In this document: positions 21,116 to 54,890 of the stretch, one piece after another
Layout: each line of letters starts with the position of its first letter
How positions within the stretch are numbered: the first letter of the stretch is position 1
NCBI RefSeq assembly: GCF_024138165.1
Contig: NZ_CP100000.1
Coordinates: 2,790,001 to 2,854,000, forward strand
DNA length: 64,000 nt
Direction: 5' to 3'
Origin: Halorussus vallis
GTDB lineage: Archaea; Halobacteriota; Halobacteria; Halobacteriales; Haladaptataceae
Program-made: the position numbers and the translations under genes
The notes under the pieces: model-generated
What the model saw: the letters and a program-made list of their open reading frames with translations, nothing else
What the model was told of the DNA's origin: nothing
Databases searched by the model: none

Positions 21116-21215
21116 GTGACTGCTTCGAAAGCCCCCGCCCGTTCGTACGCGATGCCTAATTCCCAACCGCAACAGCGACGTTCTCGAAAGTCCCACCCGC
21201 GGTGGTGGGTGTCAC
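21116..21215 (+). repeat. Dispersed element family A, partial copy
   Basis: Two GCTTCGAAAG-type units 59 bases apart (TCGAAAG at 21125 and 21184) are recognisable. The second runs directly into the family's 3' motif TCCCACCCGCGGTGG, so the central branched stem is missing. The copy lies between divergent genes. Confidence 0.6.
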
Positions 21216-27879: not shown

Positions 27880-27930
27880 GACCAAGCGAACACGAGCGGG
27901 CGGGATTGAAACGGACCGCTCTGCCGGCTG
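27880..27930 (-). repeat. Dispersed element family A, degenerate inverted copy
   Basis: Read on the minus strand, GAGCGGTCC followed by TTTCAATCCCGCCCGCTCG (27914 to 27896) resembles the 3' motif of family A (GAGCGGCC then CCCCTTTCAGTCCCGCCC). Only this end is recognisable. Confidence 0.4.
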
Positions 27931-29057: not shown

Positions 29058-29115
29058 GTGACCGCCTCGAAAGCCCCGAGGTAGAAGTCGTGGCCGGGCG
29101 TTCGCAGTAGTTCAG
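29058..29115 (+). repeat. Dispersed element family A, single-unit remnant
   Basis: GTGACCGCCTCGAAAGCCCC (29058-29077) is the exact 5' unit of family A. The remainder is degenerate (GGCCGGGCGTTCGCAG resembles the 3' flank at 21200). It lies in the 308-base gap before the rpaC-like gene, where I see no other feature. Confidence 0.5.
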
Positions 29116-35380: not shown

Positions 35381-35550
35381 GGGCTTTCGGGACGGTCTGA
35401 TGAACGACAACACCGTCGCGGAGACCGTCCCGAAAGCCCCCGACCGCTCTCCAACGACGACCGCAACGACAGCTAACGGGAACGCTTCGAAAGCCCCCGG
35501 CCCCTTTCAGTCCCGCCCGGTGGACTGTAGAGTCGAGCGCCTTCGGGGGG
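35381..35550 (+). repeat. Dispersed element family A with a local inverted repeat
   Basis: Two units (CCGAAAGCCCCCG at 35430 and TCGAAAGCCCCCG at 35487) are followed at once by the 3' motif CCCCTTTCAGTCCCGCCC, so the branched stem is deleted. The first unit forms the right arm of a perfect 18-bp inverted repeat (35381-35398 and 35422-35439, 23-base loop) that starts 17 bases after the acetyltransferase stop and may act as its terminator. The remaining bases to 35642 hold nothing I recognise. Confidence 0.6.
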
Positions 35551-45962: not shown

Positions 45963-46072
45963 GGGCCCTTAGCTCAGTCTGGTTAGAGCGCTCGGCTCAT
46001 ACTGACAACCGGATTACATTTCCGGCGTCATGGGACACCGAGTGGTCGATGGTTCGAATCCGTCAGGGCCCA
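45963..46072 (+). tRNA. tRNA-Met (anticodon CAT) with a 35-base BHB intron
   Basis: Exons 45963-46001 and 46037-46072 join to a 75-base tRNA with acceptor GGGCCCT/AGGGCCC, discriminator A, D-stem GCTC/GAGC, anticodon stem CTCGG/CCGAG and loop CTCATAA. The intron (46002-46036) lies after position 37. It forms a canonical bulge-helix-bulge: 3' bulge ACA (46035-46037), four-pair helix CTCA/TGGG, 5' bulge TAC (46000-46002) and inner helix TGAC/GTCA, topped by a CCGGA/TCCGG hairpin. Elongator Met is more likely than Ile(CAU), but the anticodon alone does not decide. Confidence 0.9.
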
Positions 46073-49812: not shown

Positions 49813-50085
49813 ACGCCTCGAAAGCCCCCGCTCGGATGTCGGAGAAGCTGTCGGTGAGAACGCTTCGAAAGCCCCCGCCCGCTCGTCAGCAGTAATATCG
49901 AGGACAGTACCGACGGACAACGTGACCGCCTCGAAAGCCCCCGCCCGCTCGCGGTCGCTGGCCGGGATATTCGGGTCGGGCCTGCGGCCTTCCCCGAATA
50001 GTGGCCCGACCAGACGACCACGTCCTTCGGACGCGAGCGGGCGGCCCCTTTCAGTCCCGCCCTCGGTGGAAGGCGTCGCCGAGCG
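49813..50085 (+). repeat. Dispersed element family A, complete copy with three 5' units
   Basis: Three units of TCGAAAGCCCCCGC type start at 49818, 49865 and 49931, followed by a branched stem. The long helix pairs GGTCG (49953-49957) with CGACC (50015-50019) and TATTCGGG (49968-49975) with CCCGAATA (49993-50000). The short arm is CGTCC-TTC-GGACG (50021-50033). The 3' motif CCCCTTTCAGTCCCGCCC ends it. The gap 49713-50270 lies between divergent genes and holds no coding sequence I can support. Confidence 0.75.
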
Positions 50086-50270
50086 TTTTCGGCAGAAAAC
50101 CCACCGGGCGCATTCGGCCGGCTGGTCGGTCTGCTATCGCCTCGCCGAAGGTCGAACTTCGCATCCGTCGTGGGAATCGCGCCGACGCGTCGGCGCGACC
50201 CCCGCGACTCCTTCCTTCCTTCCCGCCGCTGGCCCCAATCCTTTCCGCGTTGGCGGCCGAACTGCCGACG

Positions 50271-50444
50271 ATGGCGGAGTGTCCCGTCTGCGGCATGGAC
50301 GTGGAGACGACTAGCCCCGAGGAAACCGACTACCGCGACGAGAGCTTCTCGCCCGCGCAGGTCGAGTACGAGGGCGAAACCTACGAGTTCTGCGGCGAGG
50401 AACACCGCGAGGCGTTCGAGGCCGACCCCGACGAGTACGTCTGA
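50271..50444 (+). CDS. YHS-domain protein
   Basis: The 57-residue protein is a single YHS domain: CPVCGMDVE at the start, then VEYEGETYEFCGEEHREAFEADPDEYV. The three cysteines and one His suggest metal binding, as in domains of copper and heavy-metal proteins. It converges on a mercuric-reductase-like flavoprotein gene 20 bases away. Confidence 0.92.
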   Translation: MAECPVCGMDVETTSPEETDYRDESFSPAQVEYEGETYEFCGEEHREAFEADPDEYV

Positions 50445-50463
50445 ATCGGGGTCGCCGCCCGCG

Positions 50464-51879
50464 CTACGCTCGCTCGTCCAACTCCGCCTTCGCCTGCCGG
50501 AACAGGCCGTCGAGAATCTCCGGCGTCGTCGGATGGTACGCCCGGTCGGGCACCTCGCGGACGTCCATCTCGTTCTCGACGATCACCTGCATCGTCTTGG
50601 CCATCGCATCGGCGTGGTAGTGCAGGCCCTGGTAGCCCAGCACCGTCCCGTCGTCGGCGTCGACCACCAGTTTCGCCAGCCCCTCGGGCACCGCCTTGGT
50701 GGTGAACACGCCGTCCTCGCCGGCCGGGCGCGTGACCGCGACGTAGTCGCGGTCCTCCGCCGCCACCGCCTCCTCCGAGACGCCGACCCGGGCGAAGGGG
50801 TAGACGCTCACCCCGGAGAAGACGACGTGGTGGTGGACGTTGCGGTACGGCCGGAGGTCCTCACCCTCGCGGTGGGCCAGCACGTTCTCGGCCGCCAGGG
50901 CCCCCTGTTCCTTGGCGACGTGCAGAATCGGCTCGTGACCGTTGGCGTCGCCGACGACGAAGACGCGGTCGTGGTCGCGGGCCTGCATCGTGTCCCGGAC
51001 CCAGCCGTGACCTGGGTCGAGCGCCGTGTGCTCCAGTCCGATGTCGTCGACGGCGGGCCGCCGTCCCGTGAACAGGAACAGTTCGTCGGCCTCGACCGTC
51101 CAACTCTCTCCGTCGCGCTCGACGCGGAGGCCGACCCCGCCGTCGCCCCCGCCGAGCGGTTCGACCGACCGCTCGACGGTGTCGGTGAGGACGGTCACGC
51201 CGAACTCCTCCCGGTAGAGTTCCAGCAATCGCTTCCGGAACGGTTCGTCGGCCTCGTCCAGCGGGTAGTCGTCGTGTTCGATGACGGTGAGGTCCATCCC
51301 GGCGGCCTCGCTGAGGTACGGCACCAGTTCGAGGCCGACGTAGCCGAACCCCATCACGACGCCCGAGTCGGGGAACTCGGTCGCGTCGAGCACGTCGGCG
51401 CTGGTCGAGTAGTCGACCTCGTCGAGGCCGGGGAGGTCCGGGACGTTGACGGTCGACCCCGTGGCGACGACGACGTAGTCGGCCTCGATTTCCCGGTCGC
51501 CGACCGCGACGGTGCGGTCGTCGACGAACCGCGCCCGTCGGTGGACGAACTCGACGTTCTCGCGCGCCGCGAGGTCCCGGACCGCCGCCCGGCGGTGCTC
51601 GGCGAAGTTCTCGACGTGGCGCTCCTTGGTCGCGACGACTGCTTCCAGGTCGACCTCCGGCGCGCCCTCCAGGCGGTCGTCGTGACGCGCCTGGAAGCGG
51701 TGTTCGGCCGCCGACAGCACCTCCTTCGACGGCATGCACCCGCGGAGGATGCAGAGGCCGCCCCCAGGTTCGCCGTCGTCGATGAGCGTGAGTCTCACGT
51801 CCTCGGCGTCGGCCAGCGTCCGGGCGACCGCGACCCCGGCGCTCCCGTAGGCCCCGACGATGACGACGTGTGTGGTCAT
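50464..51879 (-). CDS. Pyridine nucleotide-disulfide oxidoreductase (dihydrolipoamide dehydrogenase/mercuric reductase-like)
   Basis: The 471-residue flavoprotein has an N-terminal FAD motif VVIVGAYGSAGVAVA, a redox-active disulfide CILRGCMPSK (CX4C), a central NAD-binding GFGYVGLEL, the second FAD motif RVFVVGDANGHEPILHVA and a C-terminal dimerisation domain with HYHADAMAK and RAYHPTTPEIL supplying the catalytic His. The first glycine motif (GAYGSAG) is atypical. No lipoate-complex genes are near, so the substrate is unknown; the YHS neighbour hints at a metal role. The start at 51879 excludes a long read-through into repeat A. Confidence 0.88.
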   Translation of the reverse strand: MTTHVVIVGAYGSAGVAVARTLADAEDVRLTLIDDGEPGGGLCILRGCMPSKEVLSAAEHRFQARHDDRLEGAPEVDLEAVVATKERHVENFAEHRRAAVRDLAARENVEFVHRRARFVDDRTVAVGDREIEADYVVVATGSTVNVPDLPGLDEVDYSTSADVLDATEFPDSGVVMGFGYVGLELVPYLSEAAGMDLTVIEHDDYPLDEADEPFRKRLLELYREEFGVTVLTDTVERSVEPLGGGDGGVGLRVERDGESWTVEADELFLFTGRRPAVDDIGLEHTALDPGHGWVRDTMQARDHDRVFVVGDANGHEPILHVAKEQGALAAENVLAHREGEDLRPYRNVHHHVVFSGVSVYPFARVGVSEEAVAAEDRDYVAVTRPAGEDGVFTTKAVPEGLAKLVVDADDGTVLGYQGLHYHADAMAKTMQVIVENEMDVREVPDRAYHPTTPEILDGLFRQAKAELDERA

Positions 51880-51949
51880 AGATACTCCATTACGGCGACG
51901 GCATTTATCGATTCGCCCCTCGCCACGAATCACGATGGGTAACGGAACA

Positions 51950-52175
51950 GTGACCGCCTCGAAAGCCCCCTTCCGACGGAAACGACAGCAACGGAGAACA
52001 CCTCGAAAGCCCCCGCCCGCTCGCGGTCGCTCAGCGACATATCCGGCTCGCGCCTTCGGCGCTCGCCAGATAGGGGTCGCTGAGACGACTGAAGTGAACG
52101 CGAGCGGCCGGCCCCTTTCAGTCCCACCTGCCGGTTGATTCACCGAGCGCTTCCGTCGGAGGTGTCACCGAGCGC
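51950..52175 (+). repeat. Dispersed element family A, complete copy
   Basis: Two units (TCGAAAG at 51959 and 52003) precede the branched stem: GGTCG (52025-52029) with CGACT (52086-52090), and TCAGCGAC (52031-52038) with GTCGCTGA (52076-52083), enclosing a GCGCC-TTC-GGCGC hairpin. The 3' motif is at 52101-52128. It lies upstream of the oxidoreductase gene. Confidence 0.75.
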
Positions 52176-52181
52176 TTCCGG

Positions 52182-52212
52182 CGGCCGACCGACTCTCGGA
52201 GTCGGTCGGCCG
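52182..52212 (-). terminator. Hairpin after the PGF-CTERM gene
   Basis: A perfect 14-bp stem with a three-base loop lies 56 bases beyond the stop of the surface-protein gene on the minus strand. It has no T-run but is a plausible transcript end. Confidence 0.5.
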
Positions 52213-52267
52213 GGGGAGTCGCCCAAAAAATTCGGATGCGAGGAACGTCGAAGACAGGGAGGAGAAG

Positions 52268-53479
52268 TTACCGCAGGCGGGTGAGCAGGACCGCCGCGAC
52301 CAGCGCCGCGACCGAGGCGGTCACGCCGAATCCGGGGATGTTCCCGGTGTTCTCGTCGTCGTCGGTCAGCGTCGGGTCGCCCGACCCGCCGTCGGTGGTT
52401 CCGGCCCCGTTGCTGGAACCGTTCGTGGTCCCCGCCGCGGTCGTCTGCGGCGCGGGGTCGGCCTCCGACCGGAGCGAGACGGTGCGCTCGGAGAAGTGGT
52501 TCACCGCGACCAGCACGTCGGCGCTGGCGTTCGCGCTCGCGTCGCCCGACGACGACACCAGGTAGCGCGAGCGGTCGCTCCCGATGGCGCTCTCCAGTTG
52601 CGTGTAGGTCGCGGCCTTCACCGCGGCCTCGCCGTTGACCCGGACGTCGACGCCCTCGGTGGTGTTCAGCGCCTTCTCGGAGACGCTGGCGACGATGACG
52701 GTCCCCTCGTGGGTCGTCCGGTTCACCGCGAACGAGACGTTGCCTTCTGCGGTCTGCTTCGTCTGGATGGTCGTGTTCCGGCCGTAGCTCACGGTGTCGA
52801 CGACCACTTCGCCGCTCTCGGCCATCACGTAGGCCTCGGCTCTCGCCTTGCCGTCGGCGATGAGTCGCTCCTGCTTCTCGTCGGCGTCGTCCTTGCCGTC
52901 CGGGTACGCCCGGAAGACGAGGCGGCCGTCTTGGCCGAGGCGAGCGCTGACGTTCCCGTCGTCGTTGACCGTGACGTTCCCCTGGCCGACGACGAGGAAG
53001 GTGCCCTCGGTACCGTTGGCGGTGGTGACCGACACCTGCGAGTCGCCCTCGGCGGTGGCGTTCGCGCCTGCCGAGAGGTTCGCGAGGACCACCTGGCCGC
53101 CGCGGTCGCCCTGGACGACGAGGACGCCGCGGGCGTTGTCGTGGGCGATCACTTCGGCGCCGCTCTCGGTCGCGATCTTCGCCTGCGTCTCGGACGTCGC
53201 GCCGATCTGGACGCCGCCCGCCTGGATGCTGGTCACGGCCGACAGCGAGGCGCCGGTCCCGCCGAGGAGGCCGCCGCCCTCGGCGGATTCGGCCGACCGG
53301 AGTTTCACGGAGTCGATCATCGTCTCGCCGTGGACCGCGTAGTCGGTCACGGCGTGCGCGGACGTGTCGAACGAGACGTGCGTTCCGGCGTACGCCGTTC
53401 CGGACGCCTGTCCGACCGCCGCGGGGGCGATGCCCGAAACCAGGACGAGCATCGCGAGGGAGATTGCGATTCGTCTCAT
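52268..53479 (-). CDS. Secreted surface protein with PGF-CTERM anchor
   Basis: The 403-residue protein has an N-terminal Sec signal (MRRIAISLAMLVLVSGIAPAAVGQA), a long beta-rich middle with several NxS/T sites (NLSAGANATA, NVTVNDDGNVSA, NTTIQTKQT), a Thr/Gly/Ser linker and a C-terminal IPGFGVTASVAALVAAVLLTRLR. The last is a PGF-CTERM signal, which an archaeosortase cuts to attach a lipid anchor. Function beyond surface location is unknown. The start at 53479 begins at the signal peptide. Confidence 0.88.
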   Translation of the reverse strand: MRRIAISLAMLVLVSGIAPAAVGQASGTAYAGTHVSFDTSAHAVTDYAVHGETMIDSVKLRSAESAEGGGLLGGTGASLSAVTSIQAGGVQIGATSETQAKIATESGAEVIAHDNARGVLVVQGDRGGQVVLANLSAGANATAEGDSQVSVTTANGTEGTFLVVGQGNVTVNDDGNVSARLGQDGRLVFRAYPDGKDDADEKQERLIADGKARAEAYVMAESGEVVVDTVSYGRNTTIQTKQTAEGNVSFAVNRTTHEGTVIVASVSEKALNTTEGVDVRVNGEAAVKAATYTQLESAIGSDRSRYLVSSSGDASANASADVLVAVNHFSERTVSLRSEADPAPQTTAAGTTNGSSNGAGTTDGGSGDPTLTDDDENTGNIPGFGVTASVAALVAAVLLTRLR

Positions 53480-53614
53480 GACGGTCGGGCGTGAGTCGTA
53501 ACGCCGTAATACGTCTTCTGGCTTCGTCCCAAAAACGTGAACTAATTGAGGGGCTTCGACGGTCGAAAACGGAAGTCGATGCCCAGATCCGCCCATCGCG
53601 AGCGGGACCGGGAC

Positions 53615-54568
53615 CTACCGCGAGATTTCGCCGCCCGCCTCGGAGACGACGCGCTCGACCTCCTCGGGGGTGACGACCGCCACGTCGCCCGGAATCGTCC
53701 GCTTGAGTGCCGCGGTCGCCGCGGCGTATTCGAGCGCGGCGGGGACGTCGTCGCCCGCGTGCCGCCGGACGAGGTAGGCCCCGACGAAGGCGTCGCCGGT
53801 GCCGATGGGGTCGAGCGTCTCGGTTTCGAACGCGCCCTGCTCGTAGGTTCGGCCGTCGTTGCGGGCCAGCGCTCCGTCCTCGCCCCGGGTGACGACGACC
53901 GTCTCGAAGTCGAACTCCTCGGCGAGTTCCGTCGCGATCTCCTCGGCGTCGCCCTCGCGCGCCAGCACCTCGCGGGCGTCGCGCTCGGCCGTGACCAGCA
54001 CGTCGATGTCGGCGAACAGCGATTCGAGGACCTCGCGGGCCTCTTCGGGGCTCCAGAGCTTCGAGCGATAGTTCACGTCGAACGCGGTGGTCGTCCCGGC
54101 CTCCCGGGCCGCCGCCAGCAGGTCGGCCGTGGTCGCTTCGAGGGTGTCCGAGAGCGCGGGCGTGATGCCGCAGGTGTAGAAGAAGTCGGCGTCGCGGACG
54201 CGCTCGACCGGCAACTCGCCGAACTCGGCGGTCGTGACCGCCGCGCCGGTCCGGTCGTAGATGACGTTCGTCCCCCGCGGCGCGCCGCCGTGTTCGAGGT
54301 AGTAGGTGCCCTGGCGGCCCTCGTCGCTCCACACCACGTCGGTCGCGACGCCGTGGCGGCGCAGGCCCGCGACGACCCGCCGACCCAACGGCGAGTCCGG
54401 AAGCTTCGACAGCCACGTCGCGTCGGCGCCGAGTCTGGCGGCCGCGACCGCGACGTTGCTCTCCGCGCCCGCCGCCCGGAACTCCAGTTCGTCGGTCGTC
54501 TCCAGTCGCTCGCCGTTCGGCGGAGAGAGTCGGAGCATCGTCTCCCCGAACGTCACGATGTCGGTCAT
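53615..54568 (-). CDS. kdgK: 2-keto-3-deoxygluconate kinase (PfkB family)
   Basis: The 317-residue sugar kinase has the PfkB pattern. GGxE-like [34 protein letters not shown] is at the start, and [23 protein letters not shown] carries the catalytic Asp and anion hole near residue 255. It phosphorylates KDG (and often 2-keto-3-deoxygalactonate) in the semi-phosphorylative Entner-Doudoroff pathway. The substrate would come from the mannonate dehydratase encoded near 14.4 kb or from glucose oxidation. It stands alone here, beside a family A repeat. Confidence 0.87.
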
Positions 54569-54650
54569 GTCTCGGGCGTCGCGCCCGCGGGCTATAATTT
54601 ACTCGGTAGCGGATACTCGGCGGGTTCTGGATAAGGTAACGCCAAGAAAG

Positions 54651-54890
54651 GTGACCGCTTCAAAAGCCACCGGCCGGTGACTCGGTGACGATGCCAAGTC
54701 GAGCACGACTCCGAACGTCTCGAAAGCCCCCGCCCGCTCGCGGTCGCTCAGCGACATATCCGCGGCGCGGCTTCGCCGCGCCACGCATAGGGGTCGCTGA
54801 GACGACCACGCCCTTCGGGCGCGAGCGGCCGGCCCCTTTCAGTCCCACCAGCGGTGGACTGTCTGGCTGAGCGCTTCCGGCGGTTTGGTC
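54651..54890 (+). repeat. Dispersed element family A, complete copy
   Basis: Units start at 54651 (GTGACCGCTTCAAAAGCC) and 54720 (TCGAAAGCCCCCGC). The branched stem pairs GGTCG (54742-54746) with CGACC (54803-54807) and TCAGCGAC (54748-54755) with GTCGCTGA (54793-54800). The short arm is CGCCC-TTC-GGGCG (54809-54821), and CGCTCG (54735-54740) pairs with CGAGCG (54822-54827). It lies between divergent kdgK and sirtuin genes. Confidence 0.75.

Follow-up and report, generated by a model that had tools for sequence, protein, structure and literature searches.

What are the branched hairpins that recur between the genes of the haloarchaeon Halorussus vallis, and what might they do there? The question is raised by a 64,000-nucleotide stretch of its 5.05 Mb genome (contig NZ_CP100000.1, C1 below, positions 2790001–2854000; 'the window'), in which a first-pass annotation had reported three complete copies of a dispersed, structured element. 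The best-supported account of these copies is that they belong to a plasmid-linked family of DNA hairpins; an RNA reading is not favoured, and a known insertion sequence (IS) is not supported. We think it somewhat more likely than not that the copies are dispersed, mobile versions of a single-stranded DNA (ssDNA) hairpin that acts as a control site on haloarchaeal plasmids of the conjugation (type IV secretion) type.

The three copies do exist. The starts originally given for them (49813, 51950 and 54651) are those of upstream half-units, and the hairpin cores begin later, at 49933, 52005 and 54722. Cores in the window are 115–120 nt long (115–122 nt across the family) and are closed by GAAAG/CTTTC; inside this helix lie a 3 × 3 C-rich internal loop, a 12-bp stem (CCGCCCGCTCGC/GCGAGCGGGCGG in its commonest form) and a three-way junction from which a long and a short arm branch. 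An asymmetric loop in the long arm, ATAT opposite ATAGGGG or ATAGTGG, is conserved, and the tip of this arm is variable. Short arms are as first described, CGTCC-TTC-GGACG in copy 1 and CGCCC-TTC-GGGCG in copy 3, with no such arm in copy 2, and the long helix is indeed identical in copies 2 and 3 and different, yet still paired, in copy 1. When folded as DNA, all three copies lie far below their shuffles (z from −5.0 to −8.2). Directly 3' of every core in the window stands AGTCCCRCC; upstream half-sites, spaced by 57 bp in this genome, copy the 5' arm only, and tandem units of about 25–27 bp lie downstream. The end motif occurs six times in the window where 0.49 occurrences are expected, and the TCGAAAGCCCCCG unit 13 times where 4.7 are expected.

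Pattern and model searches of the whole H. vallis genome returned 73 end motifs, against two for a reversed control, and 102 copies of the 5' unit, against five for the control. With the covariance model (R1) the genome holds about 75 family sites, most of 18 Halorussus genomes carry copies (from 0 to at least 55), and 161 of 292 sampled genomes of the class, spanning 54 of 77 genera, match at E ≤ 1e-6, although model E-values are rough and the sure matches are limited to about 45 genomes with E < 1e-12. A covariance model search of haloarchaeal genomes, the route proposed in the first-pass annotation, recovered the family across the class. In an alignment of 25 copies, 20 of 43 pairs show two-sided changes, 94% of the paired cells are complementary against 37–44% when the partner is slid, and the covariation score is 0.258 against 0.086 in shuffles. 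Remote copies keep the ends while the closing helix has changed in a compensatory manner, to GGAAG...CTTCC in L055 and L059. The proposal that pairing outlasts changes of sequence, made from three copies, is thus backed by some 25 aligned copies from H. vallis and by comparison across genera, and on this comparative evidence it is well supported that the fold is kept by selection or by mechanistic upkeep, both within the genome and across genera. Two interior folds occur between identical ends: class I, the type seen in the window, and class II (L011, L012, L020, L030 and others), whose chromosomal copies align to a plasmid form. We found no published papers on haloarchaeal repeats of this kind.

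The strand that folds can be judged from its wobble pairs and its loops, both counted in predicted folds of related copies. G-T pairs are more frequent on the complementary strand than on the given strand, in the H. vallis copies (67 against 28; sign test p=0.001) as well as in other species (70 against 33; p=0.004). On the minus strand of the H. vallis copies, 59 of 75 triloops are cGNAg and none is cTNCg, and 11 of 12 tetraloops are cGNNAg; among the remaining six-base hairpins of the window, 5 of 61 have such loops, and in a separate family of hairpins, for which the numbers are small, they occur in both orientations. Loops of the cGNA and cGNNA types form an ultra-stable class for DNA, and GNA mini-hairpins have been used in published work. 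Because of the wobble polarity and the cGNAg and cGNNAg loops, we conclude that it is probably the complementary strand that folds, and that it does so as a DNA hairpin.

A BLAST search of plasmid records with one core gave matches on plasmids of Haloarcula, Haladaptatus and Halorussus, nearly all of them intergenic and unannotated. On the Haloarcula plasmids the element lies about 490–620 bp upstream of one gene, in the same orientation, whose product is annotated as 'SOSS complex subunit B family' or as hypothetical. The same arrangement is found in Haladaptatus salinisoli, where the gene is annotated 'DNA-binding protein'; no such gene stands close to the plasmid copies of Halorussus salilacus, H. 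halophilus, H. caseinilyticus or Haladaptatus DYSN1. The product is an OB-fold, SSB/RPA-like protein of 280–385 aa. All 15 members examined contain a Pfam OB-fold, with the first of them scoring below the curated cut-off, and the protein profile matches archaeal single-stranded DNA-binding proteins (SSBs), namely 2kbn (E=4e-14) and the Sulfolobus SSB (E=1e-4). The protein has no match in phage records.

The reverse approach, in which the OB-fold protein was searched in 59 genomes and 30 loci were fetched, placed the element at the same position and in the same orientation, about 470–620 bp upstream, in 20 of the 30 loci, a count that in part used a permissive pattern and for which we estimate a chance of less than 1% per locus at genome copy density. 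Plasmid C4 of H. vallis is among these loci, with the OB-fold gene (75108–76043) and the element (76541–76662) both on the minus strand, and the chromosome has a locus of the same arrangement, with the gene near 3.2267 Mb and the element at 3227665–3227800. Both interior classes are found at the plasmid position. The class II element is carried by 120 plasmid records from 34 genera, at about one copy per plasmid, and in 11 of 19 comparable records its best place shares the strand of the protein match and lies 623–754 bp upstream of it; for the remainder another place is listed or there is an insertion, as on pNRC200, where a TnpB and PhzF block separates element and gene. We also observed that the best plasmid class II matches are 90–94% identical in DNA between many genera, though they are non-coding and mostly unannotated (records H80–H139).

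Genes for type IV secretion are found on the same replicons. On pNG500 these are a coupling protein of the TrwB type (TrwB_AAD_bind, 3e-30) and a protein of the VirB4 type; C4 of H. vallis encodes TrbL/VirB6 (3e-139), a TraG/TraC P-loop protein and a HerA-like protein. In most genomes that have both, TrbL shares contig and strand with the OB-fold gene, usually at a distance of 8–38 kb. pNG500 is the sole archaeal plasmid that a published survey scored as conjugative by its criteria (PMC3158045), and the relaxases of archaea, and hence their transfer origins, are unrecognised (PMC9905601, PMC3158045).

Of the two strands of the plasmid element, the one that folds better serves as template for the SSB-like gene. 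We propose that when plasmid DNA is single-stranded this template strand would fold into the branched hairpin, which would then be recognised. One option is that the recognised hairpin serves DNA processing, as an origin of transfer or of strand replication; another is that it allows leading genes such as that for SSB to be expressed from ssDNA, by analogy with Frpo on the F plasmid. On F, early expression of ssb depends on Frpo2, which lies upstream of that gene (PMC9849209), and hairpins resembling Frpo occur widely in leading regions (PMC11541004). Like these Frpo/ssi sites, the haloarchaeal element is a stable DNA hairpin, long or branched, that precedes an SSB-like gene on plasmids of the conjugative kind and has transfer genes in its vicinity (PMC9849209, PMC11541004). 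Its folding strand would likewise be the template strand, which fits a promoter of the Frpo type because such a promoter requires a folded template strand. It differs in being archaeal, in lacking −10/−35 boxes and in having dozens of dispersed chromosomal copies.

The main alternative to a single-strand promoter would be a transfer origin to which the OB-fold protein binds, because proteins of this fold are reported to act in the relaxosomes of some bacterial elements (PMC12614216). A replication site would come third. The chromosomal copies would most simply be products of the same single-strand processing acting in trans. In its boldest form, which we put forward only tentatively, the proposal is that the type IV secretion plasmids of archaea have in this hairpin their long-missing site of transfer or establishment, be it an origin of transfer (oriT) or a single-strand promoter, that the hairpin is recognised as ssDNA with the OB-fold protein, and that the same machinery seeded the chromosomal copies.

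Several observations weigh against a plasmid control site. Ten of the 30 OB-fold gene loci lack the element by the pattern used; the strand-polarity counts, coming from related copies, are not independent of one another; and no enzyme that moves the copies was found. The spacing between hairpin and gene (470–620 bp) is longer than that of Frpo. Inspection by eye showed no evident archaeal TATA box in the stem of class II, and an ATAT/ATAG stretch in class I. Finally, the orientation of chromosomal copies is tied to their other neighbour (the left gene is on the minus strand in 79 cases and not in 26), which the plasmid role does not explain.

How the copies spread bears on the first of the rival explanations. 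At the three window copies, flanking genes are syntenic in relatives, where the element is missing. The gap between kdgK and sir2, for example, is 430 bp in H. vallis, 139 bp in one relative (G004) and about 139 bp in another (G014), and relatives also have short gaps at the reductase-adhesin and small-protein-YHS sites. The closest copies within the genome (at most 97% identical) match over exactly GAAAG...CTTTCAGTCCCRCC, that is, through AGTCCCRCC, and have unrelated flanks; since their match stops at both ends, core and tail together form the moving unit. On a tree, copies of one species tend to fall together, with 44 changes of species label where shuffled labels give 65. Judged from these comparisons, the copies are insertional and have amplified separately in each lineage.

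Intergenic insertion, palindromic form and amplification by lineage would all suit a miniature transposable element moved by a yet-unrecognised host transposase or HUH enzyme, the plasmid position beside the OB-fold gene being one old insertion kept by descent, and so would the tail-to-tail arrangement of all six close pairs. We nevertheless regard this explanation as doubtful. Among the fetched loci, which cover part of each genome, no transposase family recurs beside the copies. Eight of the 18 Halorussus genomes lack the Y1 transposase (PF01797), and six of these eight hold from 34 to at least 55 copies; reverse transcriptase (PF00078) is absent from all 18. Target-site duplications were not seen at the empty and filled sites that were compared, where the ends are complementary (GAAAG/CTTTC), and a single old insertion sits poorly with two distinct interior folds at the same plasmid position. 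Dependence on the REP/RAYT or IS200/605 systems is not supported, given the high-copy genomes without PF01797, nor is retro-mobility, whether by a retron or a group II intron, in a genus without reverse transcriptase. Remnants of a known IS end, which the first-pass annotation had named as a possible undoing of its claim, are not supported, and neither is viral carriage, given that IMG/VR holds no exact match to the core pattern.

The family shares with REP, REPIN and BIME elements its many intergenic palindromes, tail-to-tail pairs and mosaic neighbours. Its core is, however, about 120 nt long and branched, against 20–40 bp for REP, its ends are GAAAG...CTTTCAGTCC rather than GTAG or CGTC, and several of its high-copy genomes have no Y1 transposase. 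The MITEs and PATEs of haloarchaea are similarly short, palindromic, insertional and non-coding; the hairpin family differs from them in that no partner transposase was found in the fetched loci and no target duplication is visible, and in its two alternative interiors with identical ends and its fixed plasmid position.

A second rival holds that the site is a vegetative origin of replication of the plasmids, double- or single-stranded, and not a transfer element. It gains from the presence of about one copy per plasmid, from the adjoining SSB-like gene and from an NrS-1-polymerase-like gene nearby on C4, and we rate it as a minority possibility, because the recurrent neighbours are transfer genes, because the OB-fold gene is not repH and because active origins dispersed in the chromosome would be harmful. 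A replicon of the RepH type was rejected: the 280–385 aa neighbour is much smaller than the product of the 2,787-bp repH gene of PhiH1, and is unrelated to it by annotation.

The first-pass annotation left the choice between an RNA and a DNA cruciform undecided, and our results favour a DNA hairpin. If the copies instead represented a structured non-coding RNA or RNA element, read from the opposite strand and multiplied many times over, this would account for the strong covariation, the conserved internal loop (ATAT/ATAGGGG) and the three-way junction, and the strand polarity would equally suit a minus-strand RNA. Even so, it seems quite unlikely. There is no Rfam family match at strict or loose thresholds, and even on the better strand only about 2.6% of pairs are wobbles. 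RNA would be expected to have GNRA or UNCG loops; these are nearly absent on the complementary strand, where cGNAg and cGNNAg prevail. Some Halorussus species, moreover, have 0 or 1 copy, and the sites are not conserved.

Chromosomal copies have an orientation of their own. Across 126 cores, transcription of the gene on the GAAAG side (the left gene) leads away from the element in 79 cases against 26 (p=2e-7; 34:13 in H. vallis and 45:13 in others), and the start of this gene is typically 100–230 bp from the element; the calls were based on amino acid composition, most of the genes are recognisable enzymes, and at least one call is wrong. From this bias it might be supposed that the copies insulate or regulate the left gene from upstream. 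We consider that distinctly improbable, as orthologous genes in relatives do without copies, the neighbours are unrelated housekeeping genes, an insertion bias near promoters would yield the same pattern, and the gene calls are composition-based with at least one error. An orientation bias along the chromosome that follows the lagging strand was rejected (runs test, p=0.30).

The six close pairs that stand tail to tail are at C1 2056586/2056916, 2430670/2430909, 3118855/3119278, 3287123/3287376, 3370803/3371120 and 3856207/3856643, and the partner copy often bears a shared tail module, CACGCCCTCCCCAGCCGACTCC...GGCGCGCGCTGGCGCG, like composites of the BIME type. The distance from one half-site to the next is divisible by three in some 26 of the 34 independent cases, with species-specific spacers (L215, L243, L248, L154, L157, L162, L189, L055 and others). 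Neither the left-gene orientation, nor the spacings in threes, nor the tail-to-tail pairs follow from the plasmid model, which leaves all three unexplained. A coding role for the repeats was dismissed: the open reading frames are spurious, and in several species TAG stops fall at the unit boundary (by eye).

In at least six H. vallis copies (L061, L067, L070, L079, L085 and L099) a second small hairpin, GTCGGACC-NNN-GGTCCGACGAGCTCTCGTTCGC...GAGAACC, follows immediately after CCCTTTCAGTCC; its insertion spot is exactly the same each time, and its loop occurs in both orientations (TCC/TTC and GAA/GGA). A palindromic insertion, GTCACGCGAGCGAAGCG.GTGACGTTGTCGGA..., lies within the core stem of L010, L022 and L091, so that several hairpin families nest in each other.

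Two further systems invite comparison. Pneumococcal BOX elements are intergenic repeats built of modules, in which tandem sub-units, variable in number, surround a stem. The haloarchaeal hairpins are modular in the same way, but their sequence is unrelated, their tandem units carry the hairpin 5' arm and the family is plasmid-linked. The attC sites of integrons can work as one folded strand of DNA, in which the tips vary and certain unpaired bases are conserved. The haloarchaeal hairpin may resemble them in this respect; cassette arrays and R/L box motifs were not seen in the family.

The features of the window are listed in Table 1. Of the partial copies first reported, that at 35381 stands as a collapsed copy, those at 21116 and 29058 are upstream half-sites, and that at 27880 is a mere degenerate end with three mismatches on the minus strand. 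Elsewhere in the window, a tRNA match of 110 nt (45963–46072) is long enough to hold an intron.

Table 1. Hairpin cores, tails, half-sites and related units in the window (positions count from its first nucleotide).
Feature	Position	Strand	Basis
Core of copy 1: GAAAG...CTTTC branched hairpin with long arm and short arm CGTCC-TTC-GGACG	49933–50052	+	Model R1, 148.6 bits over 49923–50062; DNA folding
Conserved 3' tail of copy 1, AGTCCCGCC	50053–50061	+	End motif; likeness among closest copies stops here
Two half-sites upstream of copy 1 (TCGAAAGCCCCCG and 5' arm)	49818–49877	+	Unit matches
Core of copy 2: branched hairpin, second arm shrunk to an unpaired loop	52005–52119	+	143.2 bits over 51995–52129; DNA folding
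3' tail of copy 2, AGTCCCACC	52120–52128	+	End motif
Half-site upstream of copy 2	51959–51971	+	Unit match
Tandem units of about 25–27 bp (CGGTTGATTCACCGAGCGCTTCC...) downstream of copy 2	52129–52186	+	
Core of copy 3: branched hairpin with short arm CGCCC-TTC-GGGCG	54722–54840	+	142.1 bits over 54712–54850; DNA folding
3' tail of copy 3, AGTCCCACC	54841–54849	+	End motif
Degenerate half-site upstream of copy 3	54660–54672	+	Unit match
Collapsed copy GAAAGCCCCCGGCCCCTTTCAGTCCCGCC, hairpin lost; its half-site at 35430	35487–35517	+	
Isolated half-site, followed by a degenerate fused end	21125–21137	+	
Isolated half-site with units of the downstream type	29067–29079	+	

The family offers a rare case in which base-pair covariation at the level of DNA can be traced over many copies, and it may explain one class of the unexplained intergenic repeats of haloarchaea. 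It is not settled how DNA transfer begins on the type IV secretion plasmids of archaea (PMC9905601, PMC3158045), and the family presents a concrete, conserved and unannotated site that lies beside an SSB-like gene on many plasmids of culturable haloarchaeal strains. If the hairpin were indeed their oriT or single-strand promoter, the dozens of copies seeded in the chromosome could themselves start transfer or recombination.

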